A DNA stretch of 34,374 nt from an uncultured Ruminococcus sp. (lineage in GTDB: Bacteria; Bacillota; Clostridia; Oscillospirales; Acutalibacteraceae). Both the position numbers and the translations under genes were made by a program. The stretch spans positions 1 to 34,374 of the forward strand of contig CACYSI010000012.1 of the NCBI GenBank assembly GCA_902776975.1. The letters are read 5' to 3'. The notes beneath the pieces were generated by a model. The model was not told the origin of the DNA, ran no database searches, and saw only the letters and a program-made list of their open reading frames with translations. Of this stretch, positions 1,651-34,374 are shown piece after piece (the stretch's first letter is position 1; every line of letters begins with the position of its first letter).

Positions 1651-1866
1651 CAATTAGGAATCAGGAATGAGGAATTAGGAATTATGGGAAACGTTTAGCC
1701 TCCCTTTCCTAAGGGAGGTGCCCCGAAGGGGCGGAGGGTTGATACATATAAAATACTTATTATTCAGCAACCCCCGTTCCCCGTTAACTGTTAACCGTTA
1801 ACCGAGTTTTCGGGTGCGGGCAACGCCCGCCGTAAACTCCACACTCCTAACTTCTAACTCCTAACT
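1651..1866. repeat. Composite intergenic repeat (TAGGAATT arrays around a palindrome payload)
   Basis: The left edge is a TAGGAATT-like array (1652-1683) and the right edge is an opposite-orientation array (CTCCTAACTTCTAACTCC, from 1845). Between them are a truncated copy of the 113-bp double-arm palindrome (1698-1776: CCTCCCTTTCCTAAGGGAGG, then CCCCGAAGGGGCGGAGGGTTG and an AT-rich centre), GTTAAC-type words, and the hairpin GCGGGC-AAC-GCCCGC (about 1818-1832). The right array supplies the TAG stop codon of the pseudouridine synthase gene at 1861. No gene is seen in it. Confidence 0.85.
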
Positions 1867-4299: not shown

Positions 4300-4575
4300 C
4301 CGGACTTATACTAATTTCAAATAAAACCCTTTAACATCTGTTGCGGAGAATTCCGTATAACTTTGTTGTCGGACTTGACAGGCGCCAGCCTGCCTGCGAT
4401 CTCCGCCTTGCTCTGCGAAATTTTCCGCAAATATCTTGTTTAAGCGTTTTAATTGAAATTAGTATCATACTATCCGGCAACATAGTTATACGAAAATCTC
4501 CGCAGCGGATGTTAAGTTTTTTTGAAACCGGTATTGCGATTATTTTTCCAAAAAATAATTTTGAGATTAGTGTCA
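4300..4575. repeat. Mosaic of interleaved inverted repeats upstream of xpt
   Basis: ATACTAATTTCAAATAAAA (from about 4308) is matched in inverted form by TTTTAATTGAAATTAGTAT (to about 4467), bounding an element of about 160 bp. A second word, TTAACATCTGTTGCGGAG followed by CCGTATAACTTTGTTG (4330-4372), recurs inverted at 4475-4515, outside the first pair, giving the order A-B-A'-B'. A further diverged end, GAGATTAGTGTCAAAAGC, lies at about 4563. Small frames here on either strand show no recognisable protein. Together with 4232-4299 and the xpt leader this is the gene-free stretch between fhs and xpt. Confidence 0.6.
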
Positions 4576-6861: not shown

Positions 6862-7125
6862 GTTAGTAGTTAGGAGTGAGAAGTGAGGAGTTTACGGCGG
6901 GACACCCGCACCCGAATACTCGGCTAACGGTTAACGGTGAATGGCGGGACACCCGCACCCGATACAGGCCCCCTTTCCTAAGGGGGCTGGCGCGAAGCGA
7001 CTGGGGGTTGCTGAACAATAAGTATTTTATATATATCAACCCTCCGCCCCTTCGGGGCACCTCCCTTAGGAAAGGGAGGCAAAGCGTTTTCCTTAACTCC
7101 TAACTCCTAATTCCTCACTACTCAC
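6862..7125. repeat. Composite intergenic repeat with a full 113-bp-type palindrome
   Basis: The left edge TTAGTAGTTAGGAGTGAG (about 6862-6879) and the inverted right edge CTCCTAATTCCTCACTAC (to about 7125) bracket two copies of GGCGGG-ACA-CCCGCACCCGA (about 6896 and 6944) joined by GGTTAACGG words, and then a complete double-arm palindrome (6967-7080). The right array provides the copA stop codon (TAG at 7120-7118). No gene is seen. Confidence 0.85.
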
Positions 7126-10409: not shown

Positions 10410-10678
10410 TGAGCCTTCCCCTTGTAGGTTGTGTGTCGCTAAGCGACAGAGGGAAGCCTTCCCCTTGAGGGGAAGGTGGCTCGGCTGTGCCGAGTCGGAT
10501 GAGGTGTAAACGCTTCTGTCAGTACCCTAACTCGGAGACAGACGAACGTTACCAACCAATTATTTAAGGTGTGAGCCTCACTGAGTTATTGATGTAACAT
10601 AGAGGTTGTCCCCTCATCCGCTTCACGCGACACTTCGTGTCCGTTCAGCACCTTCCCCCCCGAGGGGAAGGCTCGTGA
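10410..10678. repeat. GATGAGG-type structured intergenic element
   Basis: The left part holds AGCCTTCCCCTTGAGGGGAAGG followed by GTGGCTCGGC and CGGATGAGG (about 10459-10504). The right part is the inverted form, CCTCATCCG...CACCTTCCCC...GGGGAAGGCT (about 10614-10673). The same two ends recur at about 16355-16512, so this is a repeat family. Together with the tracts before and after, it fills the gene-free stretch 10132-10813. Confidence 0.75.
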
Positions 10679-14496: not shown

Positions 14497-14708
14497 TGAT
14501 AATTAGGAATTAGGAATTAGGAATTGACGGAAACGTTTAGCCTCCCTTTCCTAAGGGAGGTGCCCCGAAGGGGCGGAGGGTTGATACATATAAACTACTT
14601 ATTGTTCAGCAACCCCCAGTCGCTTCGCGCCAGCCCCCTTAGGAAAGGGGGCCTGTACGTGGAACGGCTGTCCCGGCATCAATTCCTCATTACTAATTCC
14701 TAATTGTG
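14497..14708. repeat. Composite repeat with a complete double-arm palindrome, inside an operon
   Basis: The left array AATTAGGAATTAGGAATT (about 14501-14525) and inverted right array AATTCCTCATTACTAATTCC (to about 14704) bracket a complete palindrome (14540-14652). Its outer stems are CCTCCCTTTCCTAAGGGAGG and CCCCCTTAGGAAAGGGGG, its inner stems CCCCGAAGGGG and TCGCTTCGCG, with an AT-rich centre. It lies between the binding-protein and ATPase genes of one transporter. Confidence 0.88.
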
Positions 14709-16250: not shown

Positions 16251-16770
16251 TTGATAGTTAGTAGTTAGTAGTTAGTAGTTAGTAGTTAGTAGTTGGTAGT
16301 TGGTAGTTGGCGGTTGGCAGTTGGAGGCTGACGGTTGACAGTTGACTGTTACAAGAGCCTTCCCCTCGGGGGGAGGTGGCTCGGCTTTGCCGAGTCGGAT
16401 GAGGCAGAAGCCTGTCCGATATATAAATCAACGGGATGAGGCAGGTGCGTTTACACCTCATCCGTCACCGCCTCAGTCGGCGGCGACACCTTCCCCTCAA
16501 GGGGAAGGCTCTTTTGCAGCTTTGCGACACCTCCCCTTAGGGGAGATCACACCAAGGGGAAGGCTCTTTTCTGCTGCTGACACGTTTAGGCGGGTCAGGC
16601 GGGCGGGTCAAGACCCGCCCCTACAATAGGTGCAGCTACGTTTAGCGTTTCCCATAATTCCTAATTCCTCATTCCTAACTCCTAACTACCAGAAACTCCT
16701 AACTCCACACTTCTAACGCCTCACTAAACTAACTCCTAATTCCTCATTCCTAATTCCTAATTCCTAATTA
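16251..16770. repeat. Long composite repeat block upstream of guanine deaminase
   Basis: It begins with about ten tandem GTTAGTA/GTTGGTA 7-mers (16251-16345) and ends with an inverted CTAATTCCT-type array (about 16655-16768). Inside is a GATGAGG-type element (about 16355-16512) like the one at 10459-10673, a further AAGGGGAAGGCTC copy, and a perfect hairpin GGGCGGGTC-AA-GACCCGCCC (16601-16620). This fills the gene-free stretch between the transporter promoter and guaD. Confidence 0.85.
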
Positions 16771-19729: not shown

Positions 19730-19866
19730 ATGCCTGTATTCTTTTGTAAGGGACTGCATTTTTTGTAGGAGAGGGTCGCGGAACACGTTTCTGACCCTCC
19801 CGTTACCTTTCTCGTAAATCCCTTTCACCGCTGACCGCTCTCAGCGAGCGCAGCGAACGACGACGA

Positions 19867-19949
19867 GACTGAGGGTTGCCGAATAACGAATAAGCTTTAT
19901 ATGTAAAAACCCTCCGCCCTGTCGGGCACCTCCCTTAGAAAAGGGAGGC
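19867..19949. repeat. Partial copy of the double-arm palindrome
   Basis: GACTGAGGGTTG, an AT-rich centre (CGAATAACGAATAAGC...), then CCCTCCGCCCTGTCGGGC and CTCCCTTAGAAAAGGGAGG, which is half of the 113-bp element plus a stub of the other arm. It ends about 12 bases from the phosphatase stop codon. The preceding DNA (19730-19866) shows no gene. Confidence 0.8.
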
Positions 19950-23518: not shown

Positions 23519-23552
23519 AATCAGGAATTAGGAATGAGGAATTAGGAATTGT
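23519..23552. repeat. TAGGAATT array, left boundary of the four-helix-bundle cassette
   Basis: ATCAGGAATTAGGAATGAGG followed by AATTAGGAATT. It is in opposite orientation to the array at 23937-23969. Confidence 0.85.
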
Positions 23553-23579: not shown

Positions 23580-23936
23580 TTAATTATCTTTTTCTTTCAT
23601 CGTTTTTGTTATTGATGAAAGTAACTTTTTCAATTCTATACAATCCGATGAAATCGATTGATATTCTTGCTCAGTCATATAATCGGTTTCAAACAGCAGA
23701 TCAAGCCAATACTGCGTTTCTGCGCATTCTTTGAACGCAATATATATCTTTGACAAGAAATCCTTGTCGCTCACAGCGCAGGTCGACTCGGCAATATTCG
23801 CTCCGATACTTGTACCGCTCCTGAGCAACTGTTTTGACAAAACGTATTCGTTCTTTTCATATCTTAAATACTTATACAGATTAACTATTCTGACAGCAAA
23901 CTTCTTGCTTTTTATGAGTACTACGTTTCCGTCCAT
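23580..23936 (-). CDS. Four-helix-bundle protein, 23S rRNA intervening-sequence-protein family
   Basis: A 118-residue protein of the family first seen inside 23S rRNA intervening sequences (S23/IVP; TIGR02436-like) and structurally related to the Avd accessory protein of diversity-generating retroelements. Signatures are FAVRIVNLYKYL and LSKQLLRSGTSIGANIAE, then helices with DFLSKIYIAFKECAETQYWLDLL. No enzyme activity is expected; family members may bind nucleic acid. Its DNA is clearly more AT-rich than the neighbouring glp genes. It lies between inverted TAGGAATT arrays. Its ribosome binding region and first codons (ATGGACGGAAACG) match the sequence that follows the same array elsewhere (at 14523-14535 GAATTGACGGAAACG), so the gene is fused to the repeat. 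Its function here is unknown. Confidence 0.85.
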   Translation of the reverse strand: MDGNVVLIKSKKFAVRIVNLYKYLRYEKNEYVLSKQLLRSGTSIGANIAESTCAVSDKDFLSKIYIAFKECAETQYWLDLLFETDYMTEQEYQSISSDCIELKKLLSSITKTMKEKDN

Positions 23937-23966
23937 AATTCCTAATTCCTCATTCCTGATTTCTAA

Positions 23967-23969
<3 letters not shown>
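23937..23969. repeat. TAGGAATT array (inverted), right boundary of the four-helix-bundle cassette
   Basis: AATTCCTAATTCCTCATTCC, then TGATTTCTAATTAA. It abuts the glpK stop codon (TAA, 23969-23967) and supplies the ribosome binding region of the four-helix-bundle gene. Confidence 0.85.
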
Positions 23970-25594: not shown

Positions 25595-25767
25595 AATTAG
25601 GAATTAGGAATGAGGAGTTAGGAATTAACGGCGGGACACCCGCACCCGGCTTATGGATAACGGAGAACGGTTTACAAATGGTTACCGTATACCGGATTAT
25701 ATAACTTCAAAACGCGTACACGCGTTTCCCAAAATTCCTAATTCCTATTTCCTGATTCCTAATTCTC
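25595..25767. repeat. Composite intergenic repeat between glpK and the dehydrogenase gene
   Basis: A left array (AATTAGGAATTAGGAATGAG, about 25596-25627) and an inverted right array (AATTCCTAATTCCTATTTCC, about 25734-25765) bracket GGCGGG-ACA-CCCGCACCCGG and diverged GGATAACGG words. Together with the two promoters this is the gene-free stretch 25461-25837. Confidence 0.85.
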
Positions 25768-32801: not shown

Positions 32802-34007
32802 ATGGATTTTGAAGCTGTCAAAAAGGCTGCCGAAAGCTACAGAGATGATATGACGCGTTTTCTGCGCGAGCTGATCGCTATACCGAGCGAGTCTGCCGAA
32901 GAAGAGGGCGTCGCGAAGCGGATAGTATCAGAGATGCAAAAACTCGGCTTTGACGAGGCGTTCATCGACCCTATGGGCAACGTACACGGAGTCATGGGCG
33001 CGGGCGATAAGATCATCGCCTATGACGGACATATCGACACCGTGGGACTGGGTGAGCTGTCTAACTGGAAGTTCGACCCCTACAAGGGCTATGAGACCGA
33101 TGAAGAGATCGGCGGACGCGGCTCCTCCGACCAGACGGGCGGCGTTGTATCGGCTGTATACGGCGCTAAGATAATGAAGGATCTCGGACTCATCCCCGAT
33201 GGATACAAGGTGCTGGTGACAGGCACCGTGCAGGAAGAGGACTGCGACGGTCTGTGCTGGCAGTATATACACAACGAAATGGGTATCACGCCCGAGTTCG
33301 TGGTCATCACGGAGCCTACCGACAAGGGCATCTACCGCGGTCAGCGCGGACGTATGGAGATTCGCGTAGAGGTCAAGGGCATATCCTGCCACGGCTCGGC
33401 GCCCGAGCGCGGAGACAACGCTATCTATAAGATGGCTGAGATCGTGCTGGACGTAAAGGAGCTAAACGACCGTCTGCACTATGATCCCTTCCTCGGCAAG
33501 GGTACGGTGACGGTATCTCAGCAGTTCTATAACTCGCCCTCACGCTGCGCGGTAGCGGACTTCGCGGCTATATCGCTTGACCGTCGTCTGACCAACGGCG
33601 AGACATGGGAGAGCGCTCTCGAAGAGATACGCGCGCTGCCGTCTGTACAGAAGTACGGCGCTGAGGTATCCATGTACAAGTACGAGCGTCCGTCGTGGAC
33701 GGGTCTGGTATACCCCACCGAGTGCTACTTCCCGACCTGGGTCATCCCCGAGGATCACCCCGCGTGCAGGGCTATGGTAGCCGCCCACAAGGGTATGTAC
33801 GGCGAGCCGAGAGTCGATAAGTGGACCTTCTCGACCAACGGCGTCAGCATCATGGGCAGATACGGCATACCGTGCATAGGCTTCGGTCCCGGAGCCGAGG
33901 CTCAGGCTCACGCTCCCAACGAGATAACCTGGAAGGACGATCTGGTACGCTGCGCCGCGGTCTACGCCGCCGTGCCGATGAACTATAAAAAAGGCTCCCT
34001 TTCCTAA
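32802..34007 (+). CDS. YgeY-family M20 metallohydrolase
   Basis: A 401-residue M20 peptidase-type hydrolase with two metal sites: His77 and Asp79 (YDGHIDTV), Asp110 ([11 protein letters not shown]), Glu145/Glu146 (QEEDCDG), and the dimerisation-domain motif [26 protein letters not shown] and [11 protein letters not shown] are typical of the YgeY family, often called selenium metabolism-linked because of its genome neighbours in other species. Usual partners YgeW and YgeX are not here. AGGAGG precedes the ATG. The last five residues (KGSLS) and the TAA stop are encoded by the first arm of a palindrome repeat, so the natural C-terminus has probably been altered. Confidence 0.9.
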
Positions 34008-34038
34008 GGGAGCTGTCGCGAAGCGACTGAGGGTTGAC
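33993..34038. repeat. Single arm of the double-arm palindrome, joined to a nuclease gene
   Basis: GGCTCCCTTTCCTAAGGGAG, then TGTCGCGAAGCGACTGAGGGTTG. It matches one arm of the complete copies at 6967-7080 and 14540-14652 up to the GGGTTG inner edge. Where those copies have the AT-rich centre, the DUF559 gene begins. The matching second arm would lie beyond the window. Confidence 0.8.
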
Positions 34039-34374
34039 ATGAGCAAAGAAAAGCCTATCCCGAGAGATTTACATTCAAGGCATAACGCGCGTACACTGAG
34101 GAACAATCCTACAAAGGAAGAAAACCATCTTTGGTATGATTTCCTGAGGAGTTATCCTGTCAGGTTCCACAGACAATATGTAGTAGAAAATTATATAGTT
34201 GATTTCTTTTGTCCTAAAGCCAAATTAGTTATAGAGTTGGACGGAAACCAGCATTTTACTACCGACCGAGCTGTCGACTATGATTTGAAGCGGACAAAGG
34301 ATATAGAAAAATACGGCTTTCTTGTACTCAGATATTCAAATCTCGATATACACAGACAATTTCGTAACGTCTGT
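34039..34374 (+). CDS. DUF559 endonuclease-like protein (3' end outside the window)
   Basis: 112 codons are visible and the frame is still open at the window edge. The product starts MSKEKPIPRDLHSRHNARTL and has NPTKEENHLWYDFL, RQYVVENYIVDFFCPKAKLVIELDG and RYSNLDI. This is the DUF559 / very-short-patch-repair-like nuclease fold, with catalytic candidates D (VDFFCP), E and D (IELDG), and the RTKDIEKYGF segment. GAGGG from the repeat arm, five bases before the ATG, is its ribosome binding site. The DNA is markedly more AT-rich than the ygeY-like gene beside it, a sign of different origin. Activity and target are not known. Confidence 0.88.
   Translation, partial: MSKEKPIPRDLHSRHNARTLRNNPTKEENHLWYDFLRSYPVRFHRQYVVENYIVDFFCPKAKLVIELDGNQHFTTDRAVDYDLKRTKDIEKYGFLVLRYSNLDIHRQFRNVC

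Follow-up and report, generated by a model that had tools for sequence, protein, structure and literature searches.

The described system closest to the locus analysed here is that of REPINs and RAYTs, with which it shares short GC-rich hairpins in inverted pairs, gene-less copies, and a small gene located between the same hairpins. The REPIN/RAYT protein, however, is a Y1 HUH transposase, whereas the DUF559 unit found here codes for a predicted PD-(D/E)XK Vsr-like nuclease. In addition, the arms of the DUF559 unit contain two hairpins each, several arm families and genes are possible per genome, and the GTAG tag of RAYTs was absent, by eye, at the hairpin foot, which instead reads GAGGGTTG, GAGGGATTG, GATGAGG or similar. 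A second related class consists of MITEs with an autonomous partner, which are short inverted-ended copies, some of them internal deletions, with direct repeats. Similarly, the present repeats comprise short inverted-ended copies, some of which resemble internal deletions, and direct repeats at some ends; unlike in MITEs, the DUF559 partner is no known transposase and neither the length nor the position of the direct repeats is regular. A third relative is the homing endonuclease I-Bth0305I (3r3p), which resembles the DUF559 protein in predicted fold and, weakly, in sequence, although the DUF559 genes read here were seen in no intron or intein and lie, between hairpin ends, at numerous unrelated sites instead of a fixed one, with gene-less copies in addition. 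Fourthly, VsrA of Caulobacter, also a Vsr-like nuclease with a DUF559 domain, has an in-vivo effect on DNA damage, being reportedly needed for the DNA-damage response when a cytosine methyltransferase is missing; it differs in being proposed as a mismatch-repair enzyme (PMC12907096). Lastly, CGTC-tagged REPs are REP-like dimers, mostly of alpha-proteobacteria, that apparently possess no dedicated transposase according to their description (Di Nocera et al. 2013, PMC3733652). The DUF559 arms, read by eye, do not fit the consensus quoted there (a CGTC tag, a stem of 8-9 bp beginning with A,T, and a CCA tail; PMC3733652), and a link between both is only a suggestion. A search of the open-access literature, with preprints and most subscription journals outside its scope, yielded no paper tying DUF559 to REP-like repeats.

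The best reading is that the arm-DUF559-arm unit, the best-defined type of which measures about 440 bp, works like the REPIN/RAYT system with a Vsr-like nuclease and no Y1 transposase; the wording 'works like', not 'is', was chosen because the architecture is RAYT-like but the defining enzyme of RAYTs is missing. The unit and the gene-less palindromes probably represent a mobile element, the arms of which are recognised or cut by the DUF559 nuclease and which is copied by the host. In the mechanism judged most likely, the nuclease would first recognise the hairpin arms, and repair would then copy the element. The arm-DUF559-arm unit, ending in inverted arms of two hairpins each, would be the gene-bearing form, and the gene-less palindromes would be the non-autonomous forms, in a relationship like that of REPINs to RAYTs. 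The nuclease would recognise the arms, as single strands or cruciforms, of its own unit and of the gene-less copies, and would cut or nick at or near them. Through host repair or replication, a copy of the unit would then arrive at a new location, mostly between genes, with a short target duplication or none at all. That the movement depends on the nuclease and not on some other enzyme is what we infer, and the same applies to recognition and cutting of the arms. REP-like palindromes that have no known mover are on record, for example the CGTC class in the 2013 survey (PMC3733652). If the above reading is true, DUF559, a common domain of unknown function, would turn out to serve a widespread mobile element as its enzyme, in place of both transposase kinds known for such repeats, and many intergenic palindromes would get a cause. 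The unit offers a cheap and concrete test, involving one small protein and one 45-base arm.

The window, i.e. the whole stretch of 34,374 nucleotides that was analysed, is the complete contig G000:C12 of an uncultured Ruminococcus sp. (Table 1), indicating that the DUF559 gene, the start of which makes up the last 336 bases, is cut by the assembly. Its open reading frame scored 93.6 bits against PF04480 (Pfam curated cut-off, 20.6), confirming the domain named in the original prediction. The arm preceding it had been claimed to match the arms of the complete palindromes, and indeed 40 of its 44 bases are identical to those at 6967-7010 and 14610-14653. The arrangement at its inner edge was also as described, with GGGTTG (34031-34036) separated from the ATG by two bases (AC), and with GAGGG (34029-34033) located 5 nt upstream of this start codon. 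Similarly, the gene is AT-rich compared with its neighbour, its available part having a GC content of 38.4% versus 57.9% for the M20 peptidase gene. As the stop codon of the latter lies inside the arm, the unit overlaps the end of the peptidase gene. Folded as single-stranded DNA, the 5' arm reached -13.1 kcal/mol (z -3.8).

Table 1. Coordinates of the DUF559 unit, its upstream neighbour, and the related repeats in the window.
Feature	Position	Strand	Remark
5' arm of the DUF559 unit	33993..34036	+	two hairpins, GCTCCCTTTCCTAAGGGAGC and GTCGCGAAGCGAC, then TGAGGGTTG
DUF559 (PF04480) gene, putative nuclease, cut by contig end	34039..34374	+	E 8.9e-27
M20 peptidase gene, upstream	32802..34007	+	stop TAA inside the arm
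Gene-less palindrome, type a	6967..7080	.	two inverted arms, AT-rich centre
Gene-less palindrome, type a	14540..14653	.	98% identical to the copy at 6967, other strand
Partial type-a palindrome	1698..1775	+	97% over 78 bases
Diverged partial type-a palindrome	19861..19949	-	81%
e-type arm core CTTCCCCTTGAGGGGAAG	10458..10475	+	arm type of the C31 DUF559 unit
e-type arm core	16490..16507	-	–

An inverted second arm had been predicted after the DUF559 gene, beyond the end of the window, and was found on contig C44 of the same genome. The first 21 bases of C44 equal the last 21 bases of the window; the gene continues at G000:C44:22-54 and is followed by the inverted arm CAACCCTCCGGCTCTGCGAGCCACCTCCCTTAGGAAAGGGAGGC (C44:55-98), inside of which the stop codon (TAG) is read in frame, the next gene starting at C44:157. 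That C44 is the continuation of the window contig rests on this overlap and on the occurrence of the same order on single contigs of G012, G017, and G035; G037 was compared by the flanks of the DUF559 gene alone. A second DUF559 copy on C44 (320 of 336 bases identical) was preceded by four tandem arms and immediately followed by a single inverted arm. A third gene (C31) was flanked on both sides by another arm family (CCTTCCCCTTGAGGGGAAGG..GGATGAGGTG), and a fourth one (C3) possessed such palindromes downstream only.

Structural comparison points to a PD-(D/E)XK Vsr-like nuclease with the fold of I-Bth0305I as the probable product of the DUF559 gene. The AlphaFold model of the relative L120 (pLDDT 84.5, pTM 0.76) matched 3hrl (E 1.9e-5) and I-Bth0305I (5.8e-5; TM 0.82 by target length) in a fold search, and Vsr weakly (E 0.11-0.24). 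A profile search similarly retrieved 3hrl (2.1e-22) and, weakly, I-Bth0305I (0.014). In addition, Asp55, Glu66, Asp68, and His72 were invariant in 50 sequences.

The original prediction also expected DUF559 genes to be associated with such arms at other loci and in other genomes, which was the case for the majority of the loci scored. For the flank score, the 200-250 bp upstream of each gene were compared with those downstream and the best match in inverted orientation was taken, a score of at least 13 counting as flanked; it is blind to inverted versus direct order where the repeat itself is palindromic. PF04480 was present in 29 of the 60 genomes of the genus, in which 50 rows yielded 41 short full-length genes (seven partial ones and two in long frames were excluded); 30 of the 39 loci with enough flank were flanked. 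The same was true for 20 of the 28 testable loci of the family (29 in total, two of which repeat the named set) and for 56 of the 78 testable ones in named genomes, mostly Clostridia and Selenomonas relatives (80 loci, the best 80 of 581 relatives). In contrast, none of 30 GNAT acetyltransferase genes from the same genus genomes was flanked, the top scores being 10.5 from the ORF ends and 10.0 from the domain ends. Shifted windows (0.8-1 kb for the genus) were flanked in 2 of 152 cases for the genus, 4 of 278 for the named genomes, and 0 of 104 for the family (6 of 534 overall). When partners were swapped between genomes, 229 of 1426 pairs still scored at least 13, as the arm families resemble each other. 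Six of the 14 Y1 transposase loci scored were flanked too, indicating that inverted flanks mark mobile genes generally, not DUF559 alone. Inverted flanks were not detectable at 9 of 39 DUF559 loci in the genus, 22 of 78 in the named genomes, 8 of 28 in the family, and 12 of 24 among the distant records.

The distant records comprised 29 annotated stretches, 24 of which were scored (L285, L287, L288, L289, and L298 were excluded), with DUF559 encountered on chromosomes, plasmids, and two phage-like scaffolds. Twelve loci were flanked, namely those of four Deinococcus, Pseudanabaena, Picosynechococcus, two Sinorhizobium, Novosphingobium, Azospirillum lipoferum, and two fecal phage-like scaffolds, one of the latter having a plain repeat only; the score of 17 of MT835749 reflects a plain 22-base repeat at 218 bp from the gene, with no hairpin arm. 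Flanks on both sides were absent in E. coli (two records, its ycjD gene being among the loci without inverted flanks), Photobacterium, three Sphingomonas genes, two Synechocystis genes, Shinella, Sphingobium, Azospirillum brasilense, and N. gonorrhoeae. An arm grammar near that of the clostridial units, i.e. a pyrimidine-rich hairpin, a short linker, a second hairpin, and then GGAGGG or GGATGAGGGG, occurred beside DUF559 on both sides in Novosphingobium and upstream only in Shinella and Sphingobium. The palindromes differed by group, with CCTCCC..GGGAGG in Clostridia, CCCTCACCCTAACCCTCTCCC in Sinorhizobium, CCCCCCAGAATTGGGGGG in Pseudanabaena, and others in Deinococcus. It is possible, as a tentative generalisation, that DUF559 proteins are the missing enzymes of the GC-rich REP-like palindromes throughout the bacteria, in a hairpin-ended element with a Vsr/homing-endonuclease-like enzyme as its sole protein. 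Apart from this, the N. gonorrhoeae record L299 displayed, by eye, long direct, not inverted, repeats around DUF559, and E. coli BL21 carried a palindrome pair downstream of ycjD only.

Each arm consists of two hairpins and a purine-rich foot. The two arms of a type-a palindrome are not identical, one end being CCTCCC..GGGAGG-TG and the other GCCCCC..GGGGGC-TG; the arm of the DUF559 gene in the window (GCTCCC..GGGAGC-TG) is of the second kind. An end of the CC..GG kind was paired with one of the GC..GC kind in 44 of 65 units, hence not in all, and in all ten b-type gene-less copies read. Arm type varies among units and mostly agrees inside one unit. Single-strand folding of two a-type arms gave z-scores of -3.8 and -2.7, and that of the palindrome at 14540 gave -7.1; among b-type arms, a left one reached -4.1 and a stretch covering part of a right one only -1.4. 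An Rfam search of the window gave no match, and PADLOC matches were weak. Among the units with a canonical right arm, the DUF559 stop codon lay inside or beyond the approximate inner edge of this arm in 52 of 86 cases, indicating that gene and arm form one sequence object. The 21 b-type units measured 430-487 bp, 16 of them being 443 or 444 bp long, and were usually bordered by AAG before and CTT after the arms. Eleven b-type units, with nine distinct left flanks, shared a conserved tail of about 130-150 bp past the right arm, which may belong to the mobile unit or to its target. This tail (L128, L144, L149, L151, L154, L160, L166, L178, L179, L187, and L195) displayed two further hairpins and was split in L128 by another insert carrying a b-type palindrome. 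Concerning gene neighbourhood, 75 units were co-directional with the neighbouring gene, 23 were opposite, and 19 had none upstream, these being counts without a control set.

Arm and protein vary together. For 103 units (121 minus four duplicates and 14 without a usable hairpin), hairpin similarity correlated with protein identity (r 0.575), also for pairs below 65% protein identity (r 0.295), and none of 2000 permutations reached r in either case. The fraction of pairs with alike hairpins was 0.00 (rounded) below 60% identity, 30% at 65-70%, and 59% at 70-80%, and at 80% identity or more it comprised 135 of 135 pairs; both the Mantel test and these pair counts ignore shared ancestry and include pairs at shared sites. 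Such co-variation is expected from linkage alone, indicating that arm and gene travel together and leaving recognition unproven by it. In addition, the DUF559 gene is under strong purifying selection, as 55 pairwise comparisons among the 11 b-type genes with nine distinct left flanks yielded a median dN/dS of 0.046 (median dN 0.026, median dS 0.59).

The distribution of the arms over the 60 genus genomes bears on the question of the mover. Type-a arms were present in at least two copies in seven genomes, six of which hold a type-a DUF559 gene, the other 53 genomes holding none. With types assigned by hand and kinship ignored, an association between arms and DUF559 of the same type was seen for type a (Fisher 1.4e-7) and for e/f arms (2.6e-4 or 2.2e-5, by threshold), was weak for b arms (0.002 or 0.046), and was absent for c-type arms (0.43 and 1.0). 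Many arms without DUF559 of that type occurred in G008 (18 b), G056 (11 b), G003 (43 c), G023 (24 c), G051 (9 c), G035 (23 e/f), and G058 (15 a). These arm-rich genomes would suit a scenario in which the units are moved in trans, for instance by an IS200/IS605 Y1 transposase, or by host recombination, while DUF559 performs a repair or defence job, as would the presence of Y1 transposases (PF01797) in 32 of the 60 genomes and the mismatch-repair function proposed for Caulobacter VsrA (PMC12907096). This scenario is rather unlikely, since gene and arm overlap and co-vary and the strong purifying selection on genes inserted at many different places fits a function borne by the element. Moreover, no Y1 match was found in G008, G044, G054, and G058, where arms of the a, b, and e/f patterns number 18, 58, 35, and 23, respectively; a Y1 transposase thus seems unneeded to keep arms, with the reservation that G044 and G058 are just 78-80% complete.

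The claim that the gene-less palindromes are relatives of the nuclease unit held in part. The 20 gene-less copies read measured 136-216 bp and had paired inverted arms. In five of the seven f-type copies, the sequence on the inner side of the arm resembled that of e/f-type DUF559 units more closely than any control did; three of these alignments spanned 32-41 columns, and the match of L241 reached just before the start codon. Similarly, one of three e-type copies matched a DUF559 unit, at both ends. Judged from the alignments, these matching copies look like the products expected if a gene-bearing unit underwent internal deletion. No common subterminal sequence was found for two of the seven f-type and two of the three e-type copies, and the a-type gene-less centre in the window, to which the claim referred, displayed no likeness, by eye, to the inner ends of the gene-bearing unit.

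One empty site and an excess of direct repeats indicate insertion. In G035, the genes for an FGGY kinase and an FAD oxidoreductase are separated by about 15 bp with no repeat and no palindrome, whereas the same junction in G012, G017, and G044 contains an f-type DUF559 unit between 8-bp direct repeats (TCCTCACT; left copy in G017, TCCTCGCT). The insertions of G012 and G044 are one event. As TCCTCACT resembles heptamer repeats elsewhere in the genome, it may not be a target duplication. In a set of 74 units and gene-less copies, from which four duplicates and 12 conserved-tail units had been excluded, flanking direct repeats scoring at least 8 occurred in 10 of 74 cases versus 19 of 871 swapped pairs (2.2%), and those scoring at least 9 numbered 7 versus 3 in swapped pairs. 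They lay 0-23 bp outside the arms, at varying distance, in a minority of units. The clean cases (L150 and G016C3_65k) abut the arms or nearly so; less clean were G028C63, in a longer imperfect duplication, G033C1, in a tandem duplication, and L242 and L244, in low-complexity sequence. Insertion with an irregular duplication appears supported by these comparisons. Two further candidates for a clean empty site were rejected. The site before the gene that we take to be arcC held other repeats in G017 and an unrelated stretch in G035. The place of E. coli ycjD contained efflux genes in the two ycjD-less strains opened; a sapF-ycjD-fabI query was covered for at least 80% at one place in 3333 of 5426 genomes, and among the sapF-fabI junctions inspected (L286, L287, L288, and L289) one strain has IS421 between ycjD and fabI.

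Alternatively, DUF559 may act in a homing-like manner by cutting existing gene-less palindromes that spread otherwise, repair from a gene-bearing copy via the common arms then swapping the centre, whereby the gene would invade them. I-Bth0305I, the nearest solved fold with known biology, would fit such behaviour, the arms would be abundant homologous landing sites, and the a-type gene-less centre is, by eye, unlike the inner ends of the gene-bearing unit. It is nevertheless quite unlikely, as the empty junction in G035 lacks any palindrome, five f-type gene-less copies hold sequence like the stretch from arm to gene, and the arm type tracks the protein type, indicating that genes seldom change palindrome family. 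Compared with the preferred reading of an element moved by its own nuclease, it is very improbable that palindromes and small AT-rich genes simply gather in intergenic hot spots with no functional link, because the GNAT control (0 of 30), the shifted windows (6 of 534), the length of 443-444 bp in 16 of 21 b-type units, and the arm-protein co-variation all speak against it, even if, at one and the same junction, two genomes carry an IVP gene and three carry DUF559, the site before the presumed arcC is occupied by various repeats, and IVP genes, which are small and AT-rich too, lie between other inverted repeats, these being heptamer arrays, not the arms of DUF559 units.

The IVP gene at the FGGY kinase/FAD oxidoreductase junction was found in the window and in G037. 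In the window, an IVP or four-helix-bundle gene (PF05635; 23580-23936, minus strand) was bordered on either side by an array of 7-base repeats (about 23520-23551 and 23936-23968), the two arrays being inverted relative to each other. Within the genus, 20 of the 24 IVP loci scored (30 were found, six near contig ends being excluded) had inverted flanks, compared with 1 of 84 shifted windows. These flanks were mostly heptamer-like arrays that varied from locus to locus (AGTGGTT, CAATGCG, AATTCGT, AGTTGAA, and others), and the IVP unit looks like a second, independent gene-in-inverted-repeat unit. Gene-less heptamer arrays like those around the IVP gene occurred in the window at 1670-1683, 6860-6900/7095-7115, 14505-14525/14675-14705, 16656-16765, and 25613-25746, both complete type-a palindromes being within heptamer-flanked stretches. 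At the site corresponding to 14540, G035 had a heptamer-flanked stretch without the type-a palindrome. Two other kinds of repeat were encountered. A MITE-like insert with AT-rich inverted ends in G017 (L229:7225-7360), for which the site was empty in G012 (L228:6690-6700), was bounded by a near-perfect target duplication of 9 bases (CTATGACGG/CTATGGCGG) and contained a single DUF559-type arm. Lastly, another MITE-like family is represented by a repeat approximately 170 bp long, which occurs in the window at 87-171 and 4304-4465 and in G012 (L228:6284-6450) and is absent at the same site of G017.
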